Part shown: piece by piece, positions 10,881 to 15,013 of the stretch | How the letters are laid out: every line of letters starts with the position of its first letter | Numbering within the stretch: the stretch's first letter is position 1 | Assembly: GCF_000233695.2 (NCBI RefSeq) | Contig: NZ_CM001488.1 | Location: forward strand, 1,414,202 to 1,478,201 | Direction of reading: 5' to 3' | Length of the DNA: 64,000 bases | Origin: Desulfobacter postgatei 2ac9 | GTDB taxonomy: Bacteria; Desulfobacterota; Desulfobacteria; Desulfobacterales; Desulfobacteraceae | Program-made: the position numbers and the translations under genes | Notes under the pieces: model-generated | Told to the model about the DNA's origin: nothing | The model's database searches: none | What the model saw: only the letters and a program-made list of their open reading frames with translations

Positions 10881-10967
10881 CTACCCAATACATGGCCGAA
10901 AGGATGATCAAGGCCCTTTTGATAATAGATTGTGGGGTTTTGTTTTCCTAAAAAAATACTGGAAATC

Positions 10968-11050
10968 AATCGCGGTGCTGACCGGCGCCGTGCGCCGATC
11001 AAGCAAACGCAGTTTGATTGCTCGGTGTGCGGTGCCCGGTCCAGTACCTT
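10968..11050. repeat. Left half of a three-armed palindrome (target of the outer intron)
   Basis: Three pieces are seen: arm AATCGCGGTGCTGAC at 10968-10982, an imperfect hairpin of about 25 bp at 10983-11038 (arms meeting around CGCAG), and arm GTCCAGTACCTT at 11039-11050. The first and third arms find perfect complements to the right of the intron (14921-14935 and 14906-14917). With the intron removed the DNA would fold as a Y-shaped, three-way palindrome of about 135 bp. It does not show the RYYYAAC/GTTRRRY ends of an integron attC site. Confidence 0.7.
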
Positions 11051-11598
11051 GTGTACGCCCGGCATGGGCGTGAACTTATGGGGTGCAAGTCCCCTATACG
11101 TGAATCCTGTTAATGCATACAGCATTATCAGAAGTATTAGCCGAAAACAAGGGCGGAACCGCGAGGAACCGTCTGAAGGAAGTTGGAGTGCAAAACTATG
11201 AGCCGACGAACAGAAACAGCATATAAGGCCTGGTCTCCGGGTAAGCCAGCACAACATGTCGAAGCCCAGGATTCAGGAGACAGGGTAAATGCTGCGGTTG
11301 TGTAGTGACAGTTCACGTTCTTATCCGGGGAGATCTGTTTTGCATGCGTTGAGCACCTTTTGCAACAACTCCCGGCTCGGACCATACCGGGAAACCAAGG
11401 TCCAGGCATCACCGGCTGTCGCCGACGGTGATGAGACACGAACAATAGGCAGCACTTGCAAAAGACGTTTCATTGCGCCTTTCAGGGTAACCTGTCTGGT
11501 GACAGAGCAGAAGTCAGCAGACGTCATAGTAGCCAAACGCCGGGAGTAATGTCCCGGACATGGTGAAGGACTGAACATTAAGAGAAAAGGAGGTGTTC

Positions 11599-12346
11599 AT
11601 GTGCTTTGTAGCTATAGTGAATCCGAATGGAGGAGTAGAGTACAAGCGCGTCATGAAAGAACCATTTTCAAATGATCATCTACTGGAACGTATCCTGTCA
11701 ACGGAAAATGTCCACCAAGCCTGGAAACAGGTACGTGCCAACAAAGGGGCTCCCGGGATCGACGGTGTACCTGTCGATGAATTCCCGGATGCCTTCCGTA
11801 AGTTATGGCCGAAGATACGTACAGACTTATTCGAAGGGGCATACGTCCCTTCCCCTGTTCTTAGGGTGGAAATACCAAAACCGGACGGCAGTAAACGTCC
11901 ACTTGGTATCCCAACAGTGCTGGATAGAGTTATCCAGCAGGCAATCGCCCAGGTCATGGGGTTAATATTTGATCCGCTATTTTCGGAATCAAGTTGCGGC
12001 TTCAGACCCGGAAGGTCGGCCCATGATGGTGTCCGGCAGGTAAAACAGTTCATAGGGCAGGGCTTTAAAGTAGCCGTTGATACCGATTTGTCGAAATTTT
12101 TTGATAAAGTGAATCATGATGTCCTTATGGTCAGGGTTGCCCGCCGGGTAAAGGATAAGCGTGTGTTAAGACTTATCGGTAAATACCTCCGGGCCGGTGT
12201 TATGGTCAACAATCGCCTTCAGGCAACACCAACCGGCGTTCCCCAGGGGGGGCCACTTTCACCACTGCTCGCTAACATTCTTCTCGATGATCTTGACAAG
12301 GAGCTGGAGAGGCGCGGTCACCAGTTTACCCGGTACGCTGACGACT
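11599..12346 (+). pseudogene. Outer-intron reverse transcriptase/maturase, 5' part (intron-interrupted)
   Basis: ATG 11599 follows AAAAGGAGG. The protein shows RT motifs: KGAPGIDGV, the RPLGIPTV block, CGFRPGRSAHD, DTDLSKFFDKVNHD, and GVPQGGPLSPLLANILLDDLD. The reading reaches the catalytic motif RYADD and is cut after one base of the next codon by the inner intron at 12347. Joined to 14213-14805 it restores a 446-residue RT/maturase with the expected RYADDFIIMVKS. As the DNA stands, the frame runs ten codons into the inner intron and stops at 12378. It should be functional only if the inner intron splices. Confidence 0.9.
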
Positions 12347-14212
12347 GTGTGCCACGAAGGCAGACACTGTTGCAATAAACAGTGCAGCCATGCTGCACAA
12401 AAGATGAGGGAAGGCCCCTCGAAGCCGCCATGCAGGTGGAGGCTTCAAACCACCGTAAGCTGCGCCGGTTAAGAGCCGGGGTGGTGAGCGTTACGGAAAA
12501 GGCAGGACAAGATCTTGTCAGGTAGGTTCCAAGGAGACGAACGCAAGTGAATCACTATTGAAGTGTCGAAAGCGTAGGGATGAGGTCAAAACCGGGGGGT
12601 AGTCGTTAACCCGGGATAAGTTCGGCGGTTACCTGTTTACTGGCCGGGCGGCCTCCGGCATAAAGGTGGCGTGAACTTGGGACAGGCTTTTGTGTGGAAC
12701 GTGGGAACCTGTCGCCCTGATGCTAAGGGAGAAATACAAGCGGAGGACCCGTAAGTATGAGAGTACCGATGCAGGGCACAGGGGCGGAGCGACCCGTAGT
12801 AGTGATGAAGATTCTGTAATGGAATTGGAGCGAAGGGGAAGCATTGACCAGCTTGAAGTAAAGAAAACAACTGGAAACAGGAGGATTGGATTGAACCAAG
12901 CAAAGCCGTTTTGTATTCCTAAACTTGAGGTTATGGAGGCATATGAACGGGTTAAAGCCAACAAAGGGGCTGCCGGTGTAGACGGACAGTCAATCGAAGA
13001 GTTTGAGTCTAACTTAAAGGACAATCTTTACAAGCTCTGGAATCGGATGTCCTCCGGCAGTTATTTCCCTCCTCCGGTAATGAGGGTGGAAATACCCAAG
13101 GGAGACGGTCGAATGAGGCCGTTGGGAATACCGACAGTGTCGGACAGAATCGCTCAGCAGATAGTCAAACAGCAATTGGAGCCGGAATTGGAAAAACATT
13201 TTCATCCGGATTCGTATGGCTATCGACCGGAGAAATCTGCTTTGGATGCAGTTGGGAAAGCCCGGGAGAATTGCTGGAAATATGACTGGGTATTGGATCT
13301 TGATATTAAAGGATTTTTCGATAATATTGACCATGATCTTTTGATGAAAGCAGTTCGGTATCACACGGATGACAGATGGGTGCTTCTGTATATAGAACGG
13401 TGGCTGAAAGCCCCTGTGATGATGACAGACCACACACTATTCCATCCAAAGAAGGGAACCCCGCAAGGAGGTGTTATCAGTCCCTTGCTGGCCAATCTCT
13501 TTTTGCATTATGCATTTGACAACTGGATGGAAAGGCAGTGCCCGGCCACACCGTTTGAGCGTTATGCGGATGATGCAGTGTGCCATTGTAAAAGCCTTGC
13601 CCAGGCTGAATATTTGCTTAGAAAGCTGAATGAGCGAATGGAGAATGTGGGACTGGAATTACATCCGGAGAAGACGAAAATAGTCTACTGCAAGGATACA
13701 GACCGGCAAAAGGATTATGCCCTGACAAGTTTTGATTTTCTGGGTTATACATTTCGTGCTCGGAAATCAAAGAACCGATGGAGAAAATTCTTCATTAATT
13801 TTTCTCCTGCTGTCAGCAATAAAGCAGCAAAAGCAATTCGGCAAACCTCACGAAAGTGGAATTGGCCCAGGCGCAGTGACAAGAGCCTGGAAGATTTAGC
13901 CCACATGTTCAATCCTGTCATTCAAGGTTGGATTAACTACTATGGCAGGTTTTATAAATCTGCACTCTACCCGGCCTTAAGGTGCCTGGATCGCCGGTTG
14001 GTGATTTGGGCAACAAGGAAATACAAACGTTTTAGGGGACATCGACGAAGGGCAAGTCAGTGGCTGGCTCGAATTGCACGAAGACAGCCAAATTTGTTTG
14101 CCCATTGGAGACTACTCTATGCATAGGCTGGTCAATAGGAGCCGGATGAGCGGAGACGTTCACGTCCGGTTCTGTGAGGGCCTGAGGGGGTGGTTCCCTC
14201 GGGCTACTCGAC
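12347..14212 (+). mobile_element. Inner group II intron, nested in the outer intron's RT gene
   Basis: A complete 1866-bp group II intron. The 5' end GTGTG at 12347 fits the GUGYG rule. A 34-nt domain V lies at 14139-14172 (GAGCCGGATGAGCGGAGACG ... CCGGTTC), and domain VI ends CTACTCGAC at 14212. Removing it rejoins the host frame exactly. AGTCGTT at 12601-12607 can pair fully (one G-U) with GACGACT at 12340-12346 (EBS1-IBS1), and AGCGTA at 12571-12576 pairs with TACGCT at 12334-12339 (EBS2-IBS2). These pairings explain insertion in the YADD codons. Confidence 0.95.
12819..14126 (+). CDS. ltrA: Inner-intron reverse transcriptase/maturase
   Basis: 435-residue group II intron-encoded protein. 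It shows fingers and palm motifs (KANKGAAGVDG, RPLGIPTVSDRIAQQ, SYGYRPEKSALDA, DLDIKGFFDNIDHDLL, GTPQGGVISPLLANLFL), the catalytic YADD in FERYADDAVCHC, the thumb/maturase region (FDFLGYTFRARKSKN) and a maturase X domain (NPVIQGWINYYGRFY). No HNH endonuclease domain is visible at the C terminus. ATG 12819 is chosen because the protein family starts close to this point; the frame is open back to 12690. The gene lies between domains I-III and V as usual and is uninterrupted, so the intron may still be active. Confidence 0.92.
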   Translation: MELERRGSIDQLEVKKTTGNRRIGLNQAKPFCIPKLEVMEAYERVKANKGAAGVDGQSIEEFESNLKDNLYKLWNRMSSGSYFPPPVMRVEIPKGDGRMRPLGIPTVSDRIAQQIVKQQLEPELEKHFHPDSYGYRPEKSALDAVGKARENCWKYDWVLDLDIKGFFDNIDHDLLMKAVRYHTDDRWVLLYIERWLKAPVMMTDHTLFHPKKGTPQGGVISPLLANLFLHYAFDNWMERQCPATPFERYADDAVCHCKSLAQAEYLLRKLNERMENVGLELHPEKTKIVYCKDTDRQKDYALTSFDFLGYTFRARKSKNRWRKFFINFSPAVSNKAAKAIRQTSRKWNWPRRSDKSLEDLAHMFNPVIQGWINYYGRFYKSALYPALRCLDRRLVIWATRKYKRFRGHRRRASQWLARIARRQPNLFAHWRLLYA

Positions 14213-14805
14213 TTATCATTATGGTAAAAAGTTTGAGTGCCGGAAACCGTGTGATGGCCAGTATCAAGAGGTTCCTTGAAAATAAGCTTCGGCTCAGGAT
14301 TAATGAAAAGAAAAGCAAGGTGGTGCCTGTGGAAGAGTGTGGTTTTCTTGGTTTTGTCTTTGTAAACGGCAAAATCAGATGGAGTGAAAAATCCTTTCTG
14401 GAATTTAAACGGCGGCTACGTCTGTTTACCGGAAGGAGCTGGTTTGTATCCATGGAGTACCGGTACAAGAAGTTAGCGGAATATGTGCGCGGCTGGATGA
14501 ACTATTACGGAATATCGGAGTACTATCGTCCCATCCCGTTAATAGATGAATGGCTCCGCCGCCGGATACGGATGTGCTACTGGAAACAGTGGCGGTATAC
14601 CCGTACCAAAGTCCGCCACCTGCTTAAACTCGGAACCTCCCAAAAACAGGCCATAATGACCGCTCTCAGCCGAAGGGGGCCATGGCATCTTTCCAGAACC
14701 ATGGCTACGCAATCGGGCATGACCAATAAATGGCTGTCTGAACAAGGGTTAATATCTGTCAAAGACCAGTGGGTGAAAATTCATTACCCGGCTACGGCCC
14801 GGTAA
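14213..14805 (+). pseudogene. Outer-intron reverse transcriptase/maturase, 3' part
   Basis: Continuation of the outer RT after the inner intron: FIIMVKS (with one base from 12346), then LRLRINEKKSKV, GFLGFVF and the maturase domain (VRGWMNYYGISEYY) through to the C-terminal GPWHLSRTMATQSG. It stops at 14805, eight bases before domain V of the outer intron. It has no start of its own and depends on splicing. Confidence 0.9.
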
Positions 14806-14882
14806 CCTTAATGAACCGCCCTATGCGGACCCGCTTGTGGGGTGGTGTGGGGCTGGGGGATTAAAACCCCCGGCTACCCGAT

Positions 14883-14956
14883 TCAGGCGCCAGGGGCGCC
14901 GGGACAAGGTACTGGACGAAGTCAGCACCGCGATTCACGGCGGCGGAGCCGCCGTG
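14883..14956. repeat. Right half of the palindrome plus an abutting hairpin
   Basis: AAGGTACTGGAC at 14906-14917 and GTCAGCACCGCGATT at 14921-14935 are perfect complements of arms left of the intron. The arm is followed without a gap by a 9-bp perfect hairpin at 14936-14956 (CACGGCGGC, loop GGA, GCCGCCGTG). Between the intron end and the first arm there is GGCGCCAGGGGCGCC, another small palindrome. The next 57 bases up to 15013 hold nothing I recognise. Confidence 0.65.
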
Positions 14957-15013
14957 AACGTCGCTAATCAGCCGCGCGGCTTTTCACATCGGCTGAATTT
15001 GCTTAGTTGGCTG

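Follow-up and report, generated by a model that had tools for sequence, protein, structure and literature searches.

The 64,000-nucleotide (nt) stretch of the Desulfobacter postgatei 2ac9 genome analyzed here (contig NZ_CM001488.1, positions 1,414,202 to 1,478,201 of the forward strand; hereafter, the window) contains two group II introns, one inside the other (Table 1). The inner intron splits the reverse transcriptase (RT) gene of the outer intron between bases 1 and 2 of the codon that follows the Y-A-D-D motif: the 5′ junction reads ...CGG TAC GCT GAC GAC T/GTGTGCC, and the 3′ junction reads CTACTCGAC/TT ATC ATT ATG GTA. An original prediction, made from the letters of the window, held that the outer RT frame breaks after RYADD at 12346 and resumes at 14213 as FIIMVKS, and the joined flanks do read RYADD-FIIMVKS in frame, giving an outer RT of 446 residues. 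The 5′ half of this protein matches RVT_1 and the 3′ half matches GIIM; the inner RT matches both. The arrangement is that of a bacterial twintron, a complete intron within another with both ends defined: those of the inner intron by the reading frame, by its other copies, and by an empty copy of another host RT, and those of the outer intron by empty copies of its target repeat.

Table 1. Features of the nested introns in the window and unoccupied RT genes elsewhere in the genome
Feature	Position	Strand	Basis or remarks
Inner group II intron, complete	12347-14212	+	1,866 nt; reading frame, Rfam, near-identical copies elsewhere, empty host copy
Rfam group-II-D1D4-2 match, inner intron ribozyme region	12406-12523	+	118.4 bits, E 7.4e-24
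Exon-binding site 2 (EBS2), AGCGTA	12571-12576	+	Identical or nearly so in YADD-directed relatives
Exon-binding site 1 (EBS1), AGTCGTT	12601-12607	+	Flanked by the arms of a short stem; GTCGTT identical at 40/40 YxDD sites
Inner RT/maturase gene, 411 amino acids (aa)	12891-14126	+	Pfam RVT_1 E 7.9e-44, GIIM E 1.5e-16, RdRP_1 E 3.2e-7
Inner intron domain V, 34 nt	14139-14172	+	Within Rfam Intron_gpII match; hairpin fold 14137-14173, z -4.9
Intron-binding site 2 (IBS2), TACGCT	12334-12339	+	6/6 pairs with EBS2
Intron-binding site 1 (IBS1), GACGACT (Asp-Asp codons + T)	12340-12346	+	7/7 pairs with EBS1, one G-T
Outer group II intron	11053-14882	+	5′ GTACG..., 3′ ...CCCGAT; ends from empty target repeats; Rfam D1D4-3 and D1D4-1 matches
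Rfam group-II-D1D4-3 match, outer intron ribozyme region	11155-11319	+	135.9 bits, E 6.6e-28
Rfam group-II-D1D4-1 match, outer intron ribozyme region	11476-11571	+	61 bits, E 1.7e-8
Outer RT gene, 5′ part, to Y-A-D-D and first base of next codon	11599-12346	+	RVT_1 E 2.8e-30; group_II_RT_mat E 2e-87; start codon (ATG 11599) picked by eye
Outer RT gene, 3′ part (maturase domain), from FIIMVKS... to the stop codon	14213-14805	+	GIIM E 1e-15
Candidate domain V hairpin, outer intron	14815-14846	+	Fold alone: 14796-14886 z -1.8, 10/200 shuffles as good
Long palindrome (hairpin) directly 5′ of outer intron, part of target element	10974-11048	+	Fold 10973-11052: -51.6 kcal/mol, z -7.7
Unoccupied RT genes with open frames, YCDD-V and YMDD-M (L238, L241)	G000:C1:3246916-3247602 and 1913477-1914058		

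The inner element has the termini of a group II intron (GTGYG at the 5′ end and AY at the 3′ end, here GTGTG at 12347 and AC at 14211-14212), a 34-nt domain V and a domain VI, matched together by Rfam Intron_gpII at 14137-14212 (E 7.7e-10, over threshold), and an encoded RT with a maturase domain (RVT_1 and GIIM) that also matches group_II_RT_mat (E 6.5e-136, over its cut-off). With the Rfam matches to domains I to IV and V to VI and the domain V fold in hand, the claim of a complete intron with a GTGTG start and a 34-nt domain V stands. No endonuclease domain is among the Pfam matches of the 411-aa RT, whose own YADD is followed by Ala. EBS1 and EBS2 form 13 of 13 pairs, one of them G-T, with the end of the 5′ exon; two lines of evidence back the positions first proposed for the guides, which are conserved in the family and pair with the exon that flanks each intron.

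The D. postgatei genome has seven copies of the inner intron, five of them full and two partial (an eighth DNA match, L008, of 49 nt at 82%, is not counted as a copy). The full copies are identical at 1,865 of 1,866 positions, position 1436 being A in the window copy and G in the other four, and they sit at TACGCTGACGACT, TTTGCTGATGATT (twice), TATGTCGATGACT, and TATGGTGATGACT. Copies 2 and 3 (L002 and L003) occupy two copies of another RT gene, at FADD; copy 4 occupies the YVDD codons of a non-RT gene whose 5′ part matches formiminotransferase domains; and copy 5 occupies the RYGDD codons of a non-RT gene with no Pfam match in its 5′ part. Copies 6 and 7 (L006 and L007) have lost their 5′ parts in 100-N gaps, and their 3′ exon, TTGTGATACTCTG (FVILCKGKIDA...), is that of a third RT type (YADDFVILC). 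Thus, five of the seven copies lie at the YxDD of RT genes of three types, two of them as judged by the 3′ exon alone. Three intron or RT copies (L006, L007, and L244) end in N runs (of 100 in L006 and L007), and the assembly therefore looks incomplete at these repeats.

Host genes are also present without the intron. The empty second host RT (L229/L237) reads unbroken through RFADD-FIAGF and is identical to L002 over 1,500 nt on the upstream side and over the first 674 nt on the downstream side, and the third host RT type without the intron reads RYADD-FVILC (intact in L236, damaged in L246). Neither outcome that the original prediction named as speaking against it, homologues lacking the predicted junction or a structure model placing EBS1 and EBS2 elsewhere, appeared; the empty host RTs read straight through. 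Because the other four full copies occupy the same kind of codon site and the empty host copy is intact there, the insertion into the outer RT is not a chance event; and because the three host RT types are just 34 to 46% alike (three comparisons), a single host did not carry all of the inner copies. The copies entered unlike hosts separately, although L002/L003 and L006/L007 may each share one event. The RT types never seen occupied in this genome are YCDD-V, YMDD-M, and the intron's own YADD-A, none of which has T at position -1, the last exon base before the insertion.

With EBS1 and EBS2 at fixed places in an alignment of the introns' 5′ 480 nt, guides and exons were compared at 40 sites, namely, the five own-genome sites, 34 strictly defined sites of relatives (see below), and L225. 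Across these, EBS1 reads [ACT]GTCGTT and EBS2 reads AGCGTA or close to it. The third codon positions of Tyr, Asp, and Asp (positions -11, -5, and -2) vary between C and T in the exon (T in 30, 28, and 21 of 40), and the guide base opposite them is G at 37, 40, and 40 of the 40 sites; since G can pair with either, a single guide serves for synonymous codons. All 49 exon T residues at -5 and -2 face a guide G; in 23 relatives residing elsewhere, the guide base opposite a T of IBS1 is A in 23 instances and G in 10. Out of 13 possible pairs, guides of the YADD-directed introns form on average 12.1 at their own site, 11.6 at the YADD sites of other introns, and 6.6 at non-YADD sites; for the 23 relatives residing elsewhere, the mean at their own site is 9.3, in part a result of locating EBS1 and EBS2 by reference to the intron of the window. 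The cleanest evidence for codon tolerance comes from within single genomes: one guide sits at GAC-GAC, GAT-GAT, and GAT-GAC in D. postgatei, and in Pelosinus fermentans one guide sits at GAC-GAC and GAC-GAT. With an EBS1 and EBS2 complementary to TAYGCNGAYGAYT and residence at an RT YxDD, the inner intron of the window belongs to this YADD-directed lineage.

When 84,980 species genomes were scanned with the inner RT as query, 271 relatives emerged, of which the best 80 were taken; two more from viral contigs brought the set to 82 loci, unselected with respect to target, except that an adjoining RT might make a locus easier to find. Plasmids, many of them from pathogens, gave further matches. 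The 5′ junction was located in 65 of the 82 loci (in 17, including L074 and L079, it was not), and a site was called strictly when the 5′ exon ends in codons for [YFL]xDD and a single further base and tblastn shows homology to RTs on one flank or both. On this definition, 34 of the 65 junctions lie at the YxDD of another RT. The listing of insertion sites in other genomes that the original prediction had proposed hence finds the same site recurring, and this count, together with five of the seven copies in D. postgatei, bears out its claim that the YADD motif is targeted. RT-like 3′ exons are also seen at four loci whose 5′ side is unusable (L068, L070, L100, and L103) and at L041, where the 5′ exon is not from an RT. 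The RT piece behind the L070 intron is 75% identical to the inner RT of the window, so siblings can be hosts; the 3′ exons of L070 and L041 encode the second half of an RT of the intron's own class, such that these introns also invade or border their kin.

Among the host 5′ fragments (the 34 strict cases and the window), RVT_1 is matched in 34 of 35, group_II_RT_mat (at E up to 1e-5) in 34 of 35, and a DD end is present in all 35. The strict cases span Pseudomonadota, Bacillota, Bacteroidota, Thermodesulfobacteriota, Methylomirabilota, and viral contigs. PADLOC, run on five host fragments (L121, L043, L087, L117, and the window), gave best scores to retron-type RT models for L121, to a UG4 RT for L043 (E 1.1e-81), and to a general RT model for the remaining three. 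The host of L122 looks like that of L121, and those of L044 and L061 look like that of L043; by eye, most of the remaining host RTs are group II intron RTs. Both L121 and L122 come from viral contigs (5′ exon ends, 1197 and 2455, respectively), where a relative of the intron splits a retron-like RT gene at its YADD codons. In Paraglaciecola, three introns with identical RTs (L043, L044, and L061) lie at the [YF]MDD of UG4-type RT genes, and their EBS2 (AATGTA) and EBS1 (CGTCGTT) fit TWYATG and a G at -1 (not the A of L043).

Two pattern searches added further cases. Fourteen stretches were chosen via a broad pattern, GTGYGCCACGANGG, in 395 genomes, a separate sample from the window's phylum, and four of them, from genomes G357 and G371, are YADD insertions (L214, L216, L217, and L225, of which only L225 enters the 40-site count); the pattern is noisy, matching 81 of the 395 genomes, and its reversed control also matched in a number of genomes. 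A pattern scan of viral sequences gave 61 stretches, of which a crude filter, unable to judge seven stretches with too little downstream sequence, left seven; L136 (at HADD) and the two known retron-like cases look real by eye.

Some relatives reside at other recurrent motifs. Four lie in IS3-like transposase genes (L078, identified by a Pfam match to rve, and L090, L094, and L108, identified by likeness of frame) and sit at GAY-AAY-G; EBS1 is CGTTGTT in three of these, with G facing both third codon positions, and AGTTATT in the fourth. These sites correspond to W-D-N codons (Y-D-N in L094), with L109 assigned by its 3′ flank alone. Three related introns of Bacteroidota (L114, L119, and L120) share one insertion motif in a frame ending VGAVKV, possibly that of a conjugation gene.

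The introns differ from their targets in the base after YADD. In all 35 YADD-directed introns, the intron's own YADD is followed by G, versus T in 33 of the 40 target sites, and the first base of EBS1 makes no pair with this G in 29 introns, a G-T pair in three, and a G-C pair in three. Among 31 relatives not counted as YADD-directed, the base is G in 18 and A in 13; T follows the intron's own YADD in 0 of the 66 lineage RTs examined. Because these RTs carry G or A rather than T, self-insertion may be disfavored, and any real self-protection would seem to belong to the lineage as a whole and to predate the YADD habit. In an RT tree of 83 rows, the label of RT target needs eight changes, compared to 26.5 when shuffled (0 of 500 as low); the YADD habit is clustered on the tree but was lost or gained several times. 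The tree label of L074 as a transposase target proved unfounded, and that of L079, taken from the 3′ flank, is provisional.

Considered together, these observations make it very probable, in our judgment, that the inner element belongs to a lineage of mobile group II introns whose homing sites are the catalytic YxDD codons of RT genes, and, because many relatives share both a codon-tolerant guide and residence at RT sites, the intron family looks like a group of parasites specialized on other retroelements. Several points weigh against this reading. Two of the seven own-genome copies lie in non-RT genes, 23 of the 65 relatives sit elsewhere than at an RT YxDD, and eight more look alike but are incomplete or altered and were set aside (L049, L053, L059, L071, L080, L083, L088, and L089); since YCDD-V and YMDD-M RTs are free as well, the original wording that the strategy "guarantees" target sites went too far. 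L042 and L092 have the EBS1 AGTCGTT yet lie outside RT genes, and not all YADD sites are independent, in that common events may underlie L002/L003, L006/L007, and several loci of one genome. The guide is also imperfect: at the four-fold position of Ala (-8; exon T 17, C 8, G 9, and A 6), it pairs in just 17 of 40 sites; opposite the invariant G at -7, it uses U although C would pair more strongly; and position -1 is mismatched in 4 of the 40 used sites. Exclusion of the intron's own site by one base may be leaky on account of these counts at -1 and -8, and it is not absolute, given the four mismatched sites and the sibling that hosts L070. Nor is YADD homing one unbroken clade, as follows from the eight changes on the tree, whose labels are looser than the strict 34 (46 rows called RT, some of them 3′-only, one-flank, or incomplete). 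Lastly, of the fold check suggested for the inner intron, the domain V hairpin was recovered, but the stem around EBS1 did not appear in a single-sequence fold of 12544-12636 (z 0.27). A comparison across the family supports a stem holding EBS1 through compatible changes (184 of 195 cells paired across 41 distinct hairpins; shuffles mean 157.6, maximum 168), a test that is weak against a slide by one column (+1), where 150 of 166 cells pair (0.904 versus 0.944).

The alternative that survives best, although we consider it unlikely, is that the intron is a generalist that enters many sites and that the RT copies were kept because, within selfish elements, they do no harm to the cell. The genome has 35 matches to TWYGNNGAYGAYT, against 33 for a reversed control pattern, and five of the 35 directly adjoin a full intron copy, three in RT genes and two not, as this survivorship would allow. 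It does not account for guides that themselves match YADD codons and are conserved in distant relatives, and random insertion would not keep returning to one and the same boundary between two codon positions; selection may nonetheless sharpen the pattern of YADD sites. Somewhat less likely still is that the inner intron no longer splices and has killed the outer RT. The case for splicing is read from sequence, which leaves room for such decay, but the intact RT frame, the Rfam matches to domains I to IV and V to VI, the EBS/IBS pairing, and the near-identical copies suggest recent activity. We hold it improbable that the intron entered an RT once and then spread with its host by duplication or transfer, without any real target preference: the host introns of L002 and L003 are nearly identical and a single 3′ exon is common to L006 and L007, so that each pair may be one insertion, but the same intron is carried by three unlike RT types of this genome (two of them also seen empty) and by two non-RT genes at the same codon pattern, and related introns occupy many unlike RTs. 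That intron repeats were wrongly joined to RT genes during assembly is scarcely credible, for although the 100-N gaps inside two copies show that repeats did trouble the assembly, the insertions are precise to the frame, sister sites are empty, and the same arrangement recurs in many separate assemblies, two of which are titled complete genomes (L081 and L098).

How an intron of this kind would spread can be outlined for the preferred reading, that of a lineage homing on RT catalytic codons. Most likely, the intron spreads by reverse splicing under the guidance of EBS1 and EBS2, followed by copying by its own RT, which is the established route of retrohoming. The sites, the pairing, the codon tolerance, the repeated insertion, and the empty sites can be read directly; from them we infer that the excised intron RNA, with its own RT/maturase, would recognize TAY-GCN-GAY-GAY-T by base pairing, EBS2 with TAYGCN and EBS1 with GAYGAYT, would reverse-splice between bases 1 and 2 of the next codon, and would then be copied into DNA. 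Because the intron lands in the sense orientation, splicing would restore the host RT, with a predicted product that joins GACGACT to TTATCATT; before splicing, the host RT would end after YADD, without its maturase part. Rescue of the host RT, and an outer intron that waits on the inner one, would follow from the reading frame.

With less confidence, but still on balance, we favor a broader view in which the inner intron represents a widespread hyperparasitic lineage whose codon-degenerate guide for the RT active site lets it invade nearly any RT that has YADD followed by T (group II, retron-like, and UG4-type), largely sparing its own RT (0/66 T), and whose sister lineages apply a similar trick to transposase motifs. 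Nearly any RT gene with YADD-T would be open to invasion because the guide reads the active-site motif codon-degenerately. Retron-like and UG4-type RTs are of kinds linked to phage defense. If this view is right, one lineage of retroelements lives on the one motif that is hard for other retroelements to alter, and the genetic code, rather than a single DNA site, has shaped its RNA guide; it would offer a model of retroelement hyperparasitism, in which outer introns may depend on a second ribozyme, RT kinds linked to phage defense are interrupted, and a single base distinguishes self from nonself. Single nested cases may stand in intron databases, and nested introns are easily overlooked by collection pipelines. 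As far as the available portions of their descriptions go, candidate twintrons are set aside by one pipeline (PMC4028801), and the outer member of a nested pair escapes detection by another (PMC8919778).

The outer intron has a target of its own. Besides the window, the genome has eight further matches to 10962-11052 (one of just 22 nt), and five copies of this repeat without an intron (L279 to L283) read CCTTGT/TC[AT][AG]GCGCCAG; two others (L284 and L285) end before the junction. Because the empty repeats fix its ends, the outer intron extends from 11053 to 14882, a shift of 2 nt from the start at 11051 first given. The target repeat (10962-11052 and 14883-14960 in the window) is locally clustered, with three of its eight further matches within ~3.1 kb at 3.760 to 3.764 Mb, and its palindrome could make it an attC-like or REP-like (repetitive extragenic palindromic) element. 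To judge by its protein type and by the hairpin, the outer intron may be of class C; its RT match is generic (group_II_RT_mat), and its domain V is a candidate by fold, with no Rfam match at 14815-14846. Group IIC (class C) introns lie behind terminators and attC sites, according to the part of the report available (PMC4424553), and the outer intron similarly follows a strong hairpin that ends 4 nt before 11053.

Nested group II introns are already known, as the original prediction stated. Bacterial, archaeal, and plastid twintrons have all been described, as have introns directed at conserved motifs of other mobile elements. What appears new is the homing on RT active-site codons: no report of this, or of a codon-tolerant guide, was found in the open literature, with the subscription literature largely outside the search. 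In what is accessible of the relevant reports, Thermosynechococcus elongatus offers a close parallel in TeI3 within TeI4 (PMC2882425), where a group II intron occupies one conserved site in the RT gene of other introns, identical inner copies lie in diverged outer introns, and proliferation proceeds by twintron formation. There, however, the site lies between the first two ATG codons, such that the protein can start without splicing, and the inner introns lack an open reading frame; in D. postgatei, insertion is into the catalytic motif, the inner intron encodes an RT, and the hosts are unlike RTs. The nested introns of Methanosarcina acetivorans (PMC4424553) likewise home repeatedly and site-specifically into other group II introns, but the accessible part of that report describes no codon-level targeting of an RT motif. 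In the plastid of Porphyridium, one inner intron of the mat1f twintrons is found in two outer introns that differ from each other and also in a third gene (PMC4476101), an insertion site at YADD not being described in the portion available. The nearest known case of introns aimed at mobile-element motifs is that of the Streptococcus suis families directed at integrative and conjugative elements (PMC12479173): each family homes on one short motif conserved in a protein of some other mobile element, and splicing is said to be necessary for full-length proteins. Their targets are motifs of VirB4, a helicase, and a coupling protein rather than of RTs, and the accessible text contains no analysis of guide bases against the wobble position of codons.

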